DNA of 64,000 nucleotides, taken from NCBI GenBank assembly GCA_017460105.1, contig JAFUBS010000003.1, positions 62,001 to 126,000 on the forward strand, written 5' to 3'. Positions 5,815-61,771 of this stretch are shown one piece after another (the first letter of the stretch is position 1; every line of letters begins with the position of its first letter). The translations under genes were made by a program, and so were the position numbers. Source of the stretch: Candidatus Saccharimonadota bacterium. Its GTDB lineage: Bacteria; Patescibacteriota; Saccharimonadia; Saccharimonadales; Saccharimonadaceae. The notes under the pieces were generated by a model that saw nothing but the letters and a program-made list of their open reading frames with translations, ran no database searches and was not told the origin of the DNA.

Positions 5815-5993
5815 TGGTACTGGAAGTAGGACAGTTATTTTGCTTCGCAAAATAACAACGCCGGGCGTCGCCTCAAAAAATCTCAAATAAATTTGAGATT
5901 TTCACTCGGCTCCTACGGCGTCCGAACCTACGGTTCTCGTCCTGCCTCACAATGTCAAAATTAAAATAAGACCCTTCGGGTCTATTTTAATTT
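5815..5993 (-). repeat. structured cassette B downstream of tRNA-Tyr, ending in a degenerate tRNA 3' end
   Basis: Read on the tRNA (minus) strand, this 179-bp unit follows cassette A and ends in an 18-nt copy of the tRNA-Tyr 3' end (5815-5832) with one mismatch. It contains four clear hairpins: 5956-5995 (about 18 bp), 5924-5936 (GAACC/GGTTC), 5877-5902 (12 bp) and 5834-5856 (10 bp). On the minus strand three of them close with GNA triloops (GAA, GTA, GAA). Additional pairing of ACGCCG with CGGCGT would enclose the central part. No ORF is supported. Confidence 0.65.
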
Positions 5994-6055
5994 TGGTGCT
6001 GGAAGTAGGACTCGATTCGAAGAACGAGTCCGTCACATAATGCACCGAATGTTAA
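5994..6055 (-). repeat. structured cassette A directly downstream of tRNA-Tyr with an exact copy of its 3' end
   Basis: A 62-bp unit between the CCA of tRNA-Tyr and a 22/22 identical copy of the tRNA 3' end (5994-6015 matches 6056-6077). On the minus strand it can fold as a minihelix-like structure: GGTGC pairs with GCACC, and GGACTCG pairs with CGAGTCC. It carries no coding sequence. Confidence 0.7.
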
Positions 6056-6140
6056 TGGTGCTGGAAGTAGGACTCGAACCTACGAAGCCCGAAGGCGAGA
6101 GATTTACAGTCTCTTGTCATTGCCACTAGACGATTCCAGC
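6056..6140 (-). tRNA. tRNA-Tyr (anticodon GTA)
   Basis: Class II tRNA with a long variable arm (TCTCGCCTTCGGGCTTCG). Acceptor GCTGGAA pairs with TTCCAGC, the discriminator is A, and CCA is encoded at 6058-6056. The anticodon loop CTGTAAA gives GTA. It lies 85 nt downstream of tRNA-Thr on the same strand and is probably cotranscribed with it. Confidence 0.93.
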
Positions 6141-6141
6141 A

Positions 6142-6224
6142 TGGAGCCGACTGTACAAAGTACATTCTTGCTTCACTCAGAATACGCATTTATCATGCAA
6201 GCATGCTAAATGCATCTTCATTCG
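6142..6224 (-). repeat. cassette downstream of tRNA-Thr with a copied tRNA 3' end
   Basis: The 13 nt closing tRNA-Thr (plus-strand TGGAGCCGACTGT, 6225-6237) recur exactly at 6142-6154, 83 bp further along the transcript. The spacer holds a hairpin with GCATTTA/TAAATGC arms and a small TGTAC-TTT-GTACA stem just before the copied end. It sits between tRNA-Thr and tRNA-Tyr. Confidence 0.6.
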
Positions 6225-6300
6225 TGGAGCCGACTGTCAGGCTTGAACTGACGACCTACGGTTTACAAAACCGTTGCTCTACCAGCTGAGCTAAGTCGGC
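6225..6300 (-). tRNA. tRNA-Thr (anticodon TGT)
   Basis: Acceptor GCCGACT pairs with AGTCGGC, the discriminator is T, and CCA is encoded (6227-6225). The anticodon stem ACGGT/ACCGT encloses loop TTTGTAA, giving TGT. The T-arm has a normal GTTCAAGC-type loop. Confidence 0.93.
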
Positions 6301-44380: not shown

Positions 44381-44455
44381 TGGGGATTCGCCAAGTGGTA
44401 AGGCAGTGGGTTCTGGTCCCACCATTCGGGGGTTCGAATCCCTCATCCCCAGCCA
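44381..44455 (+). tRNA. tRNA-Gln (anticodon CTG)
   Basis: Acceptor TGGGGAT pairs with ATCCCCA, the discriminator is G, and CCA is encoded (44453-44455). The anticodon stem GTGGG/CCCAC encloses TTCTGGT, giving CTG. TATAAT at 44362-44367 is its promoter. A structured cassette with a copied 3' end follows before any terminator. Confidence 0.92.
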
Positions 44456-44646
44456 AGAGAATCTTTGAGAGAAGAAACTAGGAAAGCGAAGCTTTCCGTA
44501 AGACACGAACAGAATGAAAAATTGAGAGTTTGCTCTCATATTTTTTATTCTGTGAGTGGATTAGGGACGAAGTCCCTAGTTTCTTCGTGTAGTGATTATC
44601 CGGCTCGCAGGGGATATAGGGATTCTCAATCCCTCATCCCCAGCCA
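44456..44646 (+). repeat. structured cassette E1 downstream of tRNA-Gln, ending in a tRNA-like minihelix
   Basis: Non-coding unit of 191 bp. The last 18 nt of tRNA-Gln (44438-44455) are repeated exactly at 44629-44646. Inside, GAAACTAG (44474-44481) pairs with CTAGTTTC (44576-44583). That stem encloses three hairpins: GGAAAGC-GAA-GCTTTCC, a longer AT-rich stem at 44511-44551, and AGGGAC-GAA-GTCCCT. The 3' end (44610-44646) folds as an acceptor/T-arm minihelix: GGGGAT with ATCCCC and AGGGATT with AATCCCT, then G and CCA. A terminator follows, so it is probably cotranscribed with the tRNA. Confidence 0.75.
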
Positions 44647-44651
44647 AAACT

Positions 44652-44684
44652 AATAGAAAAGAGGCGTTTGCGCTTCTATTTTTT
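44652..44684 (+). terminator. terminator of the tRNA-Gln/E1 transcript
   Basis: AATAGAA/TTCTATT outer stem with a GCG-TTTG-CGC tip, running into TTTTTT. Confidence 0.75.
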
Positions 44685-44730
44685 ATGCTGCGAAATTATG
44701 GTGTCCTCAAACGAAACAAAAAGTCCAGCC

Positions 44731-44782
44731 TTAGCTGAGCTAAGATGAGGAATCGTACGGTTCTTTGTCCTAGCTCAGCTAA
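44731..44782 (-). terminator. long hairpin after the MMPL exporter gene
   Basis: A perfect 12-bp inverted repeat (TTAGCTGAGCTA/TAGCTCAGCTAA) encloses a smaller GAATC/GGTTC stem. On the minus strand it begins 4 nt after the stop, and GGACTTTTTG follows. The internal segment AGGACAAAGAACCGTACG resembles AGGACGAGAACCGTAGG of the tRNA-Tyr cassette B. Confidence 0.6.
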
Positions 44783-44785
44783 AAC

Positions 44786-47700
44786 TTATTCAGACTTTCT
44801 TCTCAAGATTATTTTGTCGCAAGTTGCAAGAAGTGCAGGCAAAATTAGGAGAATAATAATTGCAGCACAAAGCGTACCCTCAGAGACGGTGACACAGATC
44901 TTTGCGGCAATTGCTGAACCTTGTTTATCGAACGAACCAACAATATAGGTCACAATCACAAGCACTGATGCGCTAGTAATGATTGTCGGAACGGATTTGT
45001 TATAAGACTCAATAAGAGCTTTTTTGATATCAAGTTTCTTTTTACGATGTTCGAGATAGTAATTTGTATATAAGATTGCATAATCGATCGTTGCGCCCAT
45101 CAAGATCGCTTGGACGATAATAATAGCGATAAAATAGACGGAGCTACCAGTAATTGAGAGAATCGACATTGTAATCCAAACTGCAGACTGGATGATGAGA
45201 ATAAGGATTGATGGAATAAGAAGTGACCTAAATGTGAAGGCAACAACAACGAAAATTGAAATCATTGTGAGAATAGTAATGAAGTTCATTTCATCATTAA
45301 AGGTTTTGCTCATTTCATATGCCATTGGCGAGTTACCAATTACGAAAACGTGGGCATTCTCGCTATCAATGTCTGATCTTAACTTTTCGATGAAAGCGAA
45401 TGTTTCTTCGCCCTCTTCAGCAAGTGTGGTGTTTAGGATTGCACGTGAGTGGTTTTTGCCAACAAGAAGTTTTTTCGCATCAGCAATTTTATCATTGGCT
45501 TTTTCGATATCTGCACGTTTATTAACATCAATTTTATCGCTGAAACGATTATCTTTCAGAATTGTGCCGTGGAGATAATTTACGAATTGCTCAATACTCA
45601 TTGTCCAATTATTGTCGTAATGATAAAGCGAGCCATGATACATATAAAGAAGGTCGACAAGATTCTTTTTAAGATTCCCAGAAAGGGAGCTAAGGAGGTT
45701 GAACATCGCTTTTGAGTCGTATGATTCGTTCTCGATTGAGCGATGCATAAGGTCGGTAACAGTTGAAAGAGTTTGACGCTGATCGCCCGAAAGTTCTTTG
45801 CCATATTTTGCGTCATTTACAACCGATTCATTTAAGAAAGCAACAAGGGTCTTAACGCTCATTTTTGAATTTCTATTTATATTTTCAAAATAGTTGAGTG
45901 CGTAAAGTAAGCGAAGCTGATTTTGGTCGAGACCAAAGGTTTCCGCGAGTTCTGAGCTTGTAAATTTCTTATCAGAATTTACAGCGCTCATCACGGTTTT
46001 TGCAAGATTTAACTTAGTCTTAATTTCGGTATTTAAATTTGGAGCAACTTTCTCGTCGTTTTGGTGCGCAAGAATAAAATCGACTAATCCTACAGGCGAA
46101 TTTTTAATTGAAGCGGCTTCGGTTGTAATCTGAGCCATAATAGCATTCGTCGCAGCTTCGATTTGTGGTTGCGCGGCAGCAGTGACCGCAGACACAACAG
46201 TATCTTTTGATGCGGTAGTCACTTGCTCGGTTACAGTTTCCTTGATTGTATTTATGTATGCAAGCTTTTCTTCGTCGGTCATCATGTGGCCAGTCTCAAT
46301 GTAAGTATTTGTAACTTTTTCAGTCACAAGTTCAGTAATTTTGTCTTCAACAAGTGAAGCAATTTTTTCTCTTACTGCGGTTTCAATTTTTGCTTTTGCA
46401 GTATTCTGCATTTCCGTGATTTCATCTATATGATTCAGATACGCTTCGTATTGGAAGATTTTTTCTACGCTAGATTTTTCTACGCCAAAAATCTCTGCAA
46501 GTCCAGCAGCATCGGTCTTAGCATTAATACTGTTTTTATTCAAAAATGGTTGAAGTTGGTTCAACTTTGTTTTTGCAGCTGAAGAAACTTCTTCTGAATA
46601 TTCAGGATCTTTCAAAACTTTGTTATTCATAAAATTCACAAATTCAGAAAGTGTCACTCTTGAATTTGTTACAGCTTTTCCAAGATCAGAATTTCTCTCG
46701 TTATTGCCATAAAGCACCATCACCTTTCTAAGTGAGCCTTCATTCATTTCAAAAATTTCGGCAAGTTCTCCAAGTGATTTTTCCTGGTTCATTTTCGAAA
46801 ACACAACAAAATTTGAAAGTCTTTCAATTTTAGATTTCATATTTGAATCAACGTCATCCTTGAAATTTTCATCATTCATAATAATTTGCTGAATGAAATT
46901 CACGAATTCTTCAAGCGTCATTTTATTAGTTTCGTTTGGATCATAGTAGTGGTAATAGAGAGTTTTGATGAGATAATCATCAACATTCATATCTGCACCG
47001 AGATCGTCGGCTTTTGCTTTTAATTCATCATATTTTTCTGGCTCGCCAATTGTGTTACCGAAGCAGAGCGCTTCTTTGACTTTATCAACATTGTCATAGT
47101 CTTTGCAGATTTTTGCAATGCGAGCTTCATCGGAATTGTCGTAAATAATTGCGATTTGATTTGTTTCATCGAAAATTTCACCAATTTTATTATTGTTTGC
47201 GCCAGTATATTCGATGCCAACATTGCCTTTAAGTATCATTGAGCCAAAGAGAATCAAAAGGAAAACTGGCCCAGCAATATGACGAGTAAAGTTTGCAAAG
47301 CGACCTAGGAAAGTCATATCAAAACGCGGCGCTTTTTTCTTTGAATTCATTATCCATTTATCAAAGAAGAGAAGGAAGGCTGGGAGAGTTGCGAAAATTG
47401 AAATAAGTGAAAGAAGGACGCCTTTAGAAAGGACGAGGCCCATGTCGCGACCAATTGTGAAACTCATGAAGATGAGTACAATAAGACCGACAATAGTTGT
47501 AACAGAACTTGCGGAAATTGAACCGAAAGCATGTGAAAGCGCAGCACGCATCGCCTCTTTCTTGTTACTTTCCTTTTCACGCTCCTGACGGTAACGCTCA
47601 GCAAGCATAATCGAATAATCCATCGATAATGCAAGTTGAAGAATCGCGGCGATAGAATTAGTAATGTGCGAAACACTTGGGAAAATAATATTTGTGCCTT

Positions 47701-48325
47701 TATTGATGAGGACAGCAATTAAAATTGAAGTAAGATAGAGCCATGGTTCAATGAAACTCTCAGACATTAAAGTGATAATGAGCATTGCTACGCCGACAGC
47801 AATCAAAATAATTGTAATATTGAGAACGGAGCCATTTGAAGTCGCAACATCACCTTTTTCGTAGAATGTATAGCGATTTTTTGCTCCCTCTTTCTGGTTT
47901 TTGAGATGGTCATGAATTTCGTTATAAACGTTTTTTGCATTGCCGGCGTCAGCTTCACCTTCGACCTCGATTGAATAAAGCGTATATTTTATGCCATCTT
48001 TTTCAAGGTTGTAATCTTTAGTATCATCATAGTTTACTTTATTGACGCCAGAAACGCTTTCAAAATAATCTTTCATCGAGTCTTTTTCAGAATCATCAAG
48101 ATTTTCAAACATAATTGTATAATTCGAAGTTGCAACATCACCAAATTCTTCGTCCATAATCTTTTTTCCCTGAGTAGTTTCAGAAGACTCCGGCATATAT
48201 TTCATAATATCGTGATTAATTTTGACGTTTTGTGAAACAATGGCAGAGAGCCCGGCGATACCGACCATAACAGCAAGCACTACATAGCAGTGATTCACAA
48301 TAAAATCTGTTATTTTCTTTTTCAT
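44786..48325 (-). CDS. MMPL/RND-family exporter
   Basis: An 1179-aa membrane exporter of the MMPL class. TM1 is near residues 12-30 and is followed by an extracytoplasmic loop. A six-helix RND/SSD block (about 165-385) contains SMDYSIMLAERYRQERE. A very large helical and coiled-coil extracytoplasmic region (about 390-985) follows, then a second block with GATIDYAILYTNYYLEHRKK. Such pumps export lipids or drugs. The gene reads visibly more AT-rich than its neighbours. It is divergent from a TetR regulator, which suggests a transferred pump-repressor pair. Confidence 0.88.
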   Translation of the reverse strand: MKKKITDFIVNHCYVVLAVMVGIAGLSAIVSQNVKINHDIMKYMPESSETTQGKKIMDEEFGDVATSNYTIMFENLDDSEKDSMKDYFESVSGVNKVNYDDTKDYNLEKDGIKYTLYSIEVEGEADAGNAKNVYNEIHDHLKNQKEGAKNRYTFYEKGDVATSNGSVLNITIILIAVGVAMLIITLMSESFIEPWLYLTSILIAVLINKGTNIIFPSVSHITNSIAAILQLALSMDYSIMLAERYRQEREKESNKKEAMRAALSHAFGSISASSVTTIVGLIVLIFMSFTIGRDMGLVLSKGVLLSLISIFATLPAFLLFFDKWIMNSKKKAPRFDMTFLGRFANFTRHIAGPVFLLILFGSMILKGNVGIEYTGANNNKIGEIFDETNQIAIIYDNSDEARIAKICKDYDNVDKVKEALCFGNTIGEPEKYDELKAKADDLGADMNVDDYLIKTLYYHYYDPNETNKMTLEEFVNFIQQIIMNDENFKDDVDSNMKSKIERLSNFVVFSKMNQEKSLGELAEIFEMNEGSLRKVMVLYGNNERNSDLGKAVTNSRVTLSEFVNFMNNKVLKDPEYSEEVSSAAKTKLNQLQPFLNKNSINAKTDAAGLAEIFGVEKSSVEKIFQYEAYLNHIDEITEMQNTAKAKIETAVREKIASLVEDKITELVTEKVTNTYIETGHMMTDEEKLAYINTIKETVTEQVTTASKDTVVSAVTAAAQPQIEAATNAIMAQITTEAASIKNSPVGLVDFILAHQNDEKVAPNLNTEIKTKLNLAKTVMSAVNSDKKFTSSELAETFGLDQNQLRLLYALNYFENINRNSKMSVKTLVAFLNESVVNDAKYGKELSGDQRQTLSTVTDLMHRSIENESYDSKAMFNLLSSLSGNLKKNLVDLLYMYHGSLYHYDNNWTMSIEQFVNYLHGTILKDNRFSDKIDVNKRADIEKANDKIADAKKLLVGKNHSRAILNTTLAEEGEETFAFIEKLRSDIDSENAHVFVIGNSPMAYEMSKTFNDEMNFITILTMISIFVVVAFTFRSLLIPSILILIIQSAVWITMSILSITGSSVYFIAIIIVQAILMGATIDYAILYTNYYLEHRKKKLDIKKALIESYNKSVPTIITSASVLVIVTYIVGSFDKQGSAIAAKICVTVSEGTLCAAIIILLILPALLATCDKIILRRKSE

Positions 48326-48383
48326 TTTATGACCTTTTTAATTTATACCAATGATTTTATATCTGTTCCTAAACTTTTCGAAG

Positions 48384-48431
48384 GACATTTTTTATACAAA
48401 TGTCTAATTTTATACAGATGTATGATATAAT
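48384..48431. promoter_or_regulatory. operator region between the MMPL and tetR genes
   Basis: ATACAGATGTAT (48412-48423) is a perfect dyad around GA, and a near copy ATACAAATGTCT lies at 48394-48405. The latter is nested in GACATTT/AAATGTC (48385-48404). The dyad abuts the tetR TATAAT (48426-48431), so binding there should block tetR transcription. Assignment to this TetR protein is inference from position. Confidence 0.6.
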
Positions 48432-48437
48432 GTTCAT

Positions 48438-48998
48438 ATGAAAAAGTTTAAATATAGTTCAAAAAAGCGTACGCACGAGAAAATTAAAGCGGCTTTTGCC
48501 GAACTTCTTGCAGAAAAGAAAGCACTCAATCGGATCACCGTTGCGGATCTTGCCGCTCGCGCAGAAGTGACACGTGGAACATTCTATGCGCATTATGACA
48601 ATATCTTCGAAGTTGCCGAGGAGCTCGAAAACGACTTTATTTCTATTCTTGATTCATCTGCAGAAAAGATAACATCGGTTGAGGACTATCCGATTTATCT
48701 TCATCAGATTTTTGAATTTTTGGCCGAGCATGAGGAACTTTATCGCCAATTATTTTTAAGTGATGCGCCAATGGTCTTTATCGCTCACCTTAATCACCAA
48801 ATCGAAAAAACTATTAAAGAAATCTTGCGTGAACATTCGATTAATAAGCCAATGCTCGATCTTGATATTGCATTCTTTACGGACGGTGCGACTTACATGA
48901 TTTTGAAATATTTTAGAAATGAAATTTCACTTAGCCTTGATGAGATTGAACAGTATTTGAAACAACGCATTGAAGAAATGTTTCTCGCAACAAAATAG
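48438..48998 (+). CDS. TetR/AcrR-family transcriptional regulator
   Basis: A 186-aa repressor. The N-terminal HTH reads ITVADLAARAEVTRGTFYAHYDN, and the C-terminal helical domain is a ligand pocket of unknown specificity. TATAAT (48426-48431) ends 6 nt before the ATG. It is divergent from the MMPL exporter gene with operator-like dyads between them, so it probably represses both genes until an effector binds. Confidence 0.9.
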   Translation: MKKFKYSSKKRTHEKIKAAFAELLAEKKALNRITVADLAARAEVTRGTFYAHYDNIFEVAEELENDFISILDSSAEKITSVEDYPIYLHQIFEFLAEHEELYRQLFLSDAPMVFIAHLNHQIEKTIKEILREHSINKPMLDLDIAFFTDGATYMILKYFRNEISLSLDEIEQYLKQRIEEMFLATK

Positions 48999-49044
48999 TA
49001 AAACAACAGATCTATGATATAATTAATCTAAAGAGGGTGGTGGA

Positions 49045-49150
49045 TTAACCTTCTGGATTGAAGTTATCTAGTTTATTGCGGATATCTTCCTTGTAGATTG
49101 TTAATGCCTGCTTAATTTGCCCCAGCCAGTGAATCTCAGACTGAAAGGAA
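49045..49150 (-). pseudogene. possible 3' relic of a protein gene under cassette E2
   Basis: On the minus strand a short frame reads SEIHWLGQIKQALTIYKEDI, continues RNKLDNFNPEG and ends in TAA at 49045-49047. It looks protein-like but runs upstream into the structured cassette and has no start. I do not recognise the family. It may be a gene end disrupted by the cassette, or chance. Confidence 0.3.
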
Positions 49151-49316
49151 CTAGGAGAGCGCAGCTCTCCGTAGGATACGAGAAATATAAAAAATACTAG
49201 AGCGAGCTCTAGATTTTTTATATTTCGAGTAGACTAAAGGGACGTAGTCCCTAGTTCCTTCTCTCTTAGATTACCTGGCTCGCTGGGGATGCGGGATCCC
49301 TATCCCACCACCATCC
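49120..49316 (+). repeat. structured cassette E2, relative of E1
   Basis: It has the same architecture as the tRNA-Gln cassette. GGAACTAG (49147-49154) pairs with CTAGTTCC (49251-49258) around three hairpins: GGAGAGC-GCA-GCTCTCC, a perfect 21-bp AT-rich stem at 49182-49226 and AGGGAC-GTA-GTCCCT. An outer stem joins CCCCAGCCAG...AATCT to AGATT...CTGGCT...CTGGGG. Several stem positions differ from E1 by compensatory changes. TATAAT at 49018-49023 could start a transcript. No intact tRNA lies beside it. Confidence 0.7.
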
Positions 49317-49437
49317 TCCTCCTCCGCATACGCACAACGTATGCTATAATCACAGCGATTATCACGAGAATTATCAGTATGAACCAAATCGGCATGATAA
49401 AGATTACTTTTATGCTTTCATTTTTTGGAATATTTGA

Positions 49438-61611: not shown

Positions 61612-61735
61612 AAGTTCCTTTGGTTAATTAATATTGAAAATTAGCTAATTGTTAATTTTCGTCACCAAATAAATACAAGATTTGTCCTCGGTGGCATGAT
61701 TAAGTGTAAACACCGCCACTGTCTTTGGTAACTTT
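61612..61735 (-). promoter_or_regulatory. ribosomal protein L10 leader
   Basis: On the minus strand the 5' UTR of rplJ reads AAAGACAGTGGCGG and then, after a loop, TGCCACCGAGGAC. This matches the known L10 leader (GACAG...GCCACCGAGG-type pairing) through which L10-L12 represses its own operon. The TATAAT is at plus 61740-61745. A second hairpin in AT-rich sequence lies nearer the start codon. Confidence 0.8.
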
Positions 61736-61771
61736 ATACATTATAGCACAGGTGTGTGATATAATCAAGTC

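Follow-up and report, generated by a model that had tools for sequence, protein, structure and literature searches.

The stretch analysed here, a window of 64,000 nucleotides from a Candidatus Saccharimonadota genome, carries a plus-strand gene for tRNA-Gln(CTG) (44381-44455) whose encoded CCA ends at 44455 and whose 3' end is the putative insertion site of a non-coding element of 191 nt (44456-44646, +). This element, referred to below as a mini-cassette, extends from the CCA of the tRNA to the CCA of a copy of the tRNA end; the boundaries of the family were set from two identical copies in a related genome (G158). The source genome is a fragmented and incomplete assembly (649 kb in 13 contigs, 88.5% complete). 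The initial annotation had noticed that the last 18 nt of the tRNA are copied exactly, and the repeat is even longer: a 20-nt block, AATCCCTCATCCCCAGCCAA, is identical at 44437-44456 and 44628-44647, and we estimate the probability of such a repeat arising by chance inside 200 bases at about 1e-10.

The mini-cassette opens with a 5' arm (44456-44470, +) which, together with the preceding GCCA, pairs with nucleotides ~44591-44605 across the cassette junction. It is followed by a four-way-junction core (44471-44586, +) that consists of an outer stem and three arms and is delineated by covariation in 45 copies. Arm 1 (44481-44497, +) and arm 3 (44564-44576, +) are hairpins with a C(GAA)G closing, and arm 2 (44499-44562, +) is interrupted by GA/GA internal loops; its tip (44523-44538) resembles a terminator and is followed by a T-run (44540-44546), the terminator-like pattern being present on both strands. 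Downstream of the core, an anti-arm (44602-44624, +; GGCT-CGCA-GGGGAT-AT-AGGGATT) forms a bulged, imperfect complement of the tRNA 3' end, and the tail (44628-44647, +) reproduces the 3' end of tRNA-Gln without a mismatch and extends one A beyond it. The rebuilt acceptor/T-arm pairing that had been proposed for this region is real and involves GGGGAT..ATCCCC and AGGGATT CTC AATCCCT. The stretch 44456-44684 folds far better than its shuffled counterparts as RNA (z -8.3), and the element also out-folds shuffles as DNA (z -9.8). No recombinase gene is present in its 191 nt, the only ORF being an unsupported one of 62 aa.

Outside the mini-cassette lies a second terminator-like site (44660-44684, +) within a segment of 4.48 kb (44647-49128) that encodes an MMPL transporter (44786-48325, -) and a TetR regulator (48438-48998, +) and ends with CCCCAGCCA. 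A second mini-cassette of the same family with a decayed tail (W2; 49129-49319, +) follows directly. Elsewhere in the window, an L10 ribosomal protein leader (Rfam RF00557) is located at 61625-61746 (-).

DNA searches recovered W2 and a third copy behind tRNA-Ser(CGA) elsewhere in the source genome, along with further copies in relatives. The covariance search suggested by the initial annotation, carried out with a model built from five copies, returned 45 strong matches, all from one genus of rumen and gut Saccharibacteria. If weak matches are included (E<=0.01), 126 of the 174 genomes of this genus contain at least one, and outside the genus weak matches alone were obtained. Exact matches to the anti-arm occur eight times among 84,980 species genomes, all of them in Candidatus Saccharibacteria and most from ruminants, and three patterns searched against IMG/VR gave no exact match that would indicate viral carriage. 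As far as searched, the family appears to be confined to the Saccharibacteria lineage, and the open-access literature yielded no description of such elements in this group. Of the 45 strong copies, 41 lie behind tRNA-Gln(CTG) or tRNA-Ser (GCT, TGA, GGA or CGA), all in one orientation, and either right after the CCA or one other small cassette further on.

The fold of the core is well conserved throughout the family. Across the 45 copies 92.6% of the cells pair and compensated changes are found in 39 of 49 pairs, counts that are biased towards the model because the alignment was fitted to it, albeit with a large margin: the covariation score is 0.574 vs 0.187 for shuffled alignments and ~0.1 when the pairing is slid. 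Arms 1 and 3 are each closed by a C(GNA)G-type triloop in 41 of the 45 copies, with the middle base free, and the GA/GA internal loops of the long arm recur in 30. C(GNA)G triloops are very stable in DNA. In predicted folds the plus strand forms the structure slightly better than its complement, the differences between strands being small.

The anti-arm is tailored to the tRNA behind which the mini-cassette resides. Its bulge reads CGCA in the tRNA-Gln copies and often CTCT in the tRNA-Ser copies, it pairs best with its own resident tRNA group in 31 of the 41 tRNA-anchored copies, and in 27 of the 41 this pairing beats shuffled sequences at p<=0.01. The 5' arm plus GCCA is likewise matched to the arm ending in TGGC, with a mean energy of -6.16 for true partners and -4.94 +/- 0.20 for permuted ones (0 of 300 permutations as good); because this pairing is specific to its own partner, the cassette junction falls within a covarying stem, which is predicted to form in the inserted state, where the CCA comes from the tRNA itself, as well as after excision as a circle. 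Comparable tails are found behind various tRNAs and belong to several cassette types. A hit-enriched sample of 167 tRNA loci yielded 52 distinct tail copies, of which 42 pair with the preceding arm at 9 or more of 18 positions and 37 pair better than shuffles at p<=0.05. The view of the cassette as a structured segment whose tail copies the tRNA end is supported by folding, by covariation and by the pairing of the arm with the copy. The tail copy differs from the resident tRNA at no more than one of 18 positions in 24 of the 41 copies and is decayed in the remaining 17; since decay is this frequent despite the pairing, the tail is more readily seen as a site of recombination than as an RNA end that is being maintained.

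Several observations bear on mobility. In G158 two 100% identical copies reside behind tRNA-Ser(GGA) and tRNA-Ser(CGA), 12 kb apart; their identity stops at the final CCA and the flanks beyond differ. This pair could also be explained by gene conversion via the shared tRNA 3' ends. In another relative (G115) an island of 7.5 kb with a tyrosine integrase is enclosed by 250-bp repeats, each made up of the 3' half of a tRNA-Ser together with this element. The segment 44647-49128 is 99.3-99.7% identical in G127, although identity falls to 75% in the gene that precedes the tRNA; the segment is bounded by AGCCA at both ends, and in G127 it begins after the AGCCA of a different tRNA-Gln. Beyond CCCCAGCCA, four related genomes show four different continuations. 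On the evidence of these sequences, the 4.48-kb segment is a recent transfer between species, delimited by the same CCA boundary as the mini-cassettes. W2, 4.7 kb downstream of tRNA-Gln, and a copy in G006, 15.8 kb downstream of tRNA-Gln, are both on the strand of that tRNA and have no adjacent tRNA of their own. They are best read as older insertions displaced within an array; insertion at non-tRNA sites was rejected in favour of displacement because both copies share this position and strand.

Copies of tRNA 3' ends are not restricted to tRNA-Gln and tRNA-Ser: in the source genome they accompany 5 of 31 tRNAs, and control 13-mers gave almost none. Behind tRNA-Phe (L159 13741-18365, contig G000:C3 of the source genome) two gene segments with a common leader and trailer, one of them encoding a PIF1-like helicase, are followed by a 57-nt hairpin cassette. 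Within the window, two further small cassettes lie behind tRNA-Tyr (region 5815-6056, -), whose 3' end is copied at +62 and +241 (one mismatch); of these cassettes the second is of a different structured type that contains GAACCGTAGGTTC. In the region 6142-6225 (-), the last 13 nt of tRNA-Thr are copied at +83, ending just before tRNA-Tyr. An array behind a tRNA-Gln(TTG) (L041, in G010) has copies at +76, +154, +613 and +694 and includes a cassette with an ORF of ~100 aa. It appears from these arrangements that tRNA CCA ends anchor cassette arrays of both mini- and gene cassettes, beside the islands of serine recombinases. The end of the 4.48-kb segment (49051-49128) is a conserved C-terminal coding fragment, WLGQIKQALTIYKEDIR.., cut exactly at the CCA, and many genomes carry one or two instances of it at the borders of cassettes. 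An attC-like hairpin was considered for the conserved 80-nt trailer of the gene cassettes and rejected, since in one minus-strand frame (WLGQIKQALTIYKEDIRQRL..) most of its variation is synonymous. The trailer more plausibly encodes the C-terminus of a protein whose gene, possibly that of the recombinase, would be complete only in the circle; searches for an intact gene matching the trailer or the C-terminal fragment found none.

Taken together, we consider it probable that the element is a non-autonomous, structured, non-coding mobile mini-cassette inserted at the CCA end of the tRNA by site-specific recombination. Insertion would take place immediately behind the CCA of tRNA-Gln, and since the repeated block stops precisely at the CCA, the tRNA would be left undamaged. 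Anti-arm, loop and tRNA-end copy would together constitute the recombination site that moves with the cassette, and the four-way-junction core would form its conserved body, which may at the same time provide the tRNA with a terminator-like hairpin. Later insertions at the same CCA would push older cassettes outwards and thereby give rise to arrays of mini- and gene cassettes, and an excised circle would carry the junction ..CATCCCCAGCCA|AGAGAATC.. The family, its structure, site and orientation, the arrays and the transfer of the neighbouring gene segment can be read from the sequences themselves; from these we infer that a recombinase active close to the CCA moves the mini-cassette itself, in a process for which the folded form of one DNA strand may be important. 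The genomes compared are fragmented metagenome assemblies; among them no excised circle was seen, no otherwise identical genome had a precisely unoccupied site, no recombinase was tied to the mini-cassettes, and G127, the comparison without the element, also differs in its tRNA and upstream region.

Two proposals concerning the enzyme and the strand refine this explanation rather than compete with it, and their probabilities overlap with its own. The first, which we regard as possible if tentative, resembles an integron: one strand of the excised circle would fold, the junction stem would mimic the target, and a tyrosine recombinase would exchange the strand with the double-stranded tRNA end. 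The order of the tail (outer box, bulge, inner box, variable loop, inner box, outer box) is that of attC, the CCA|5' arm junction is paired and covarying, and the GNA triloops with their free middle base, the GA/GA loops and the slightly better folding of the plus strand all point in the same direction; the attC-like placement of the junction and the triloops in particular make such a folded-strand mechanism attractive by analogy, and we would grant it a minor share of the likelihood. The source genome moreover encodes a 285-aa Xer-like protein besides a XerC/D-like one, these being the only two Phage_integrase proteins in an assembly of 88.5% completeness. However, neither is an integron integrase (TIGR02249 scores of 129 and 84 bits vs a cut-off of 265), no GTTRRRY core boxes were noticed by eye, the strand differences are small, and an RNA of the same fold would covary alike.

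According to the second proposal, large serine recombinases, whose own islands exploit these tRNA ends, would act in trans to mobilise the mini-cassettes. Such recombinases are present in the source genome, and PF07508 proteins occur in 87 of 170 genomes of the genus, several of them directly behind tRNA-Gln. At tRNA-Leu(GAG) of the source genome a Resolvase/Recombinase/zinc-ribbon serine recombinase (L168 13558-15188, contig G000:C9) has a frame that runs into the 3' end of the tRNA, with a likely right border copy 2968 nt from it, and recombinase frames enter the 3' ends of tRNA-Val, Asn, Trp, Leu and Gln in relatives. The CCA boundary is also common to the gene cassettes, but their tails (..TTAATGCCTGCTTAATTTGCCCCAGCCA) resemble those of the mini-cassettes in the last ~9 nt only, and serine recombinases are not known to need either the 17-18 nt of identity or the folded structure. 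We regard this proposal as possible but not likely.

Target-site duplication, whereby a transposase or Cas1-like integrase copies ~18 nt of the tRNA end, would account for the fact that most tails match the resident tRNA exactly, and for the 24 of 41 that agree with it at 17 or 18 positions. However, the tails at two loci (L117 and L081) mismatch the resident tRNA, indicating that the tail travels with the cassette; gene cassettes bring their own tails; and the anti-arm within the element is tailored to the tRNA. We therefore regard such duplication as very unlikely.

The initial annotation had pictured one transcript holding the tRNA, a branched structure and a second acceptor/T-arm stem that ends in GCCA; that such a transcript would carry a functional second CCA end for tRNA-processing enzymes is not supported. 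The strong, RNA-compatible covariation and the location of the element on the strand of the tRNA would suit a processed structured RNA of this kind. The cassette does not simply precede the tRNA terminator, however: the tip of its own middle arm and the adjoining T-run resemble a terminator and lie upstream of the minihelix, the site at 44660-44684 being a second one. Because the terminator-like hairpin precedes the tail, transcripts from the tRNA promoter probably stop inside the element, as judged from the consensus pattern. ARAGORN and Rfam returned no tRNA, tmRNA or other curated RNA match at the minihelix or cassette, and the counter-evidence that had been named in advance, relatives with broken minihelix stems, is partly seen, the copy being decayed in 17 of 41 relatives. 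In view of the upstream hairpin and the decay of the tail, an RNA role for the latter is unlikely and the functional RNA as a whole improbable; of the selection for a foldable 3' end that had been suggested, the link to integration is upheld by the evidence for mobility and recognition by tRNA processing is not.

A retroelement using the tRNA as primer (the anti-arm can start with TGG) is dismissed, as priming of this kind would leave a reverse complement, which the body is not, and the sole reverse transcriptase found in the source genome reads as part of a diversity-generating element, and an IS200/IS605 or REP-type element is dismissed for lack of a Y1 transposase in the 88.5% complete source genome (no PF01797 match). 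The reverse transcriptase locus (L140 799-2797, contig G000:C7) also holds a short gene resembling Avd, encodes a variable protein rich in repeats and is probably a diversity-generating retroelement.

Saccharibacteria, with their tiny genomes, live on other bacteria as far as is known. Little is understood of how they acquire genes, and tRNA-end anchors for both kinds of cassette would account for the local turnover of genes and give experiments a defined target. A more far-reaching idea, to which we assign a low probability, is that of an integron-like system without an integron in which tRNA 3' ends would act as array entry sites and mini-cassettes would recombine via a single strand folded into a stem that imitates the end of the tRNA. 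The mini-cassettes also offer a clean test of whether the body that a mobile element conserves can be a folded DNA strand instead of coding content.

Among known systems, MITE-like non-autonomous elements are short, non-coding, foldable and present in many copies. The mini-cassette shares all of these properties, but it is very site-specific (tRNA CCA) and lacks the classic terminal inverted repeats and short duplications. In Candidatus Methylopumilus, additive flexible genomic islands are marked by repeats of the last 20 nt of tRNA-Lys; the part of that account considered here describes similarly variable arrays marked by tRNA-end repeats, but at one tRNA and without mention of structured mini-cassettes (PMC10872708). 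At the ssrA gene of Dehalococcoides, tandem genomic islands are associated with the serine recombinase DsiB and 20-bp repeats of the 3' end of the RNA gene; the repeats of an RNA-gene end, the tandem arrangement, the islands without a recombinase and the recombinase gene that reads into the end of the RNA gene, as into tRNAs here, all have parallels in our data, whereas those are gene islands and the present element comprises 191 non-coding nucleotides that contain a conserved four-way junction as well as a tail that folds (PMC3146451). Of the hallmarks of tRNA islands of serine recombinases, the mini-cassette has the direct repeat of the RNA-gene end at its far border and lacks an internal recombinase gene. 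Integrons differ in that no IntI, attI or GTTRRRY box was seen here, in the anchoring to tRNA ends and in the structured nature of the non-coding body itself (PMC8946536). Like integron cassettes, however, the cassettes described here form arrays, each ends in an imperfect palindrome with the junction in a stem, and, as in attC sites, the structure of the mini-cassette is conserved better than its sequence (PMC8946536).
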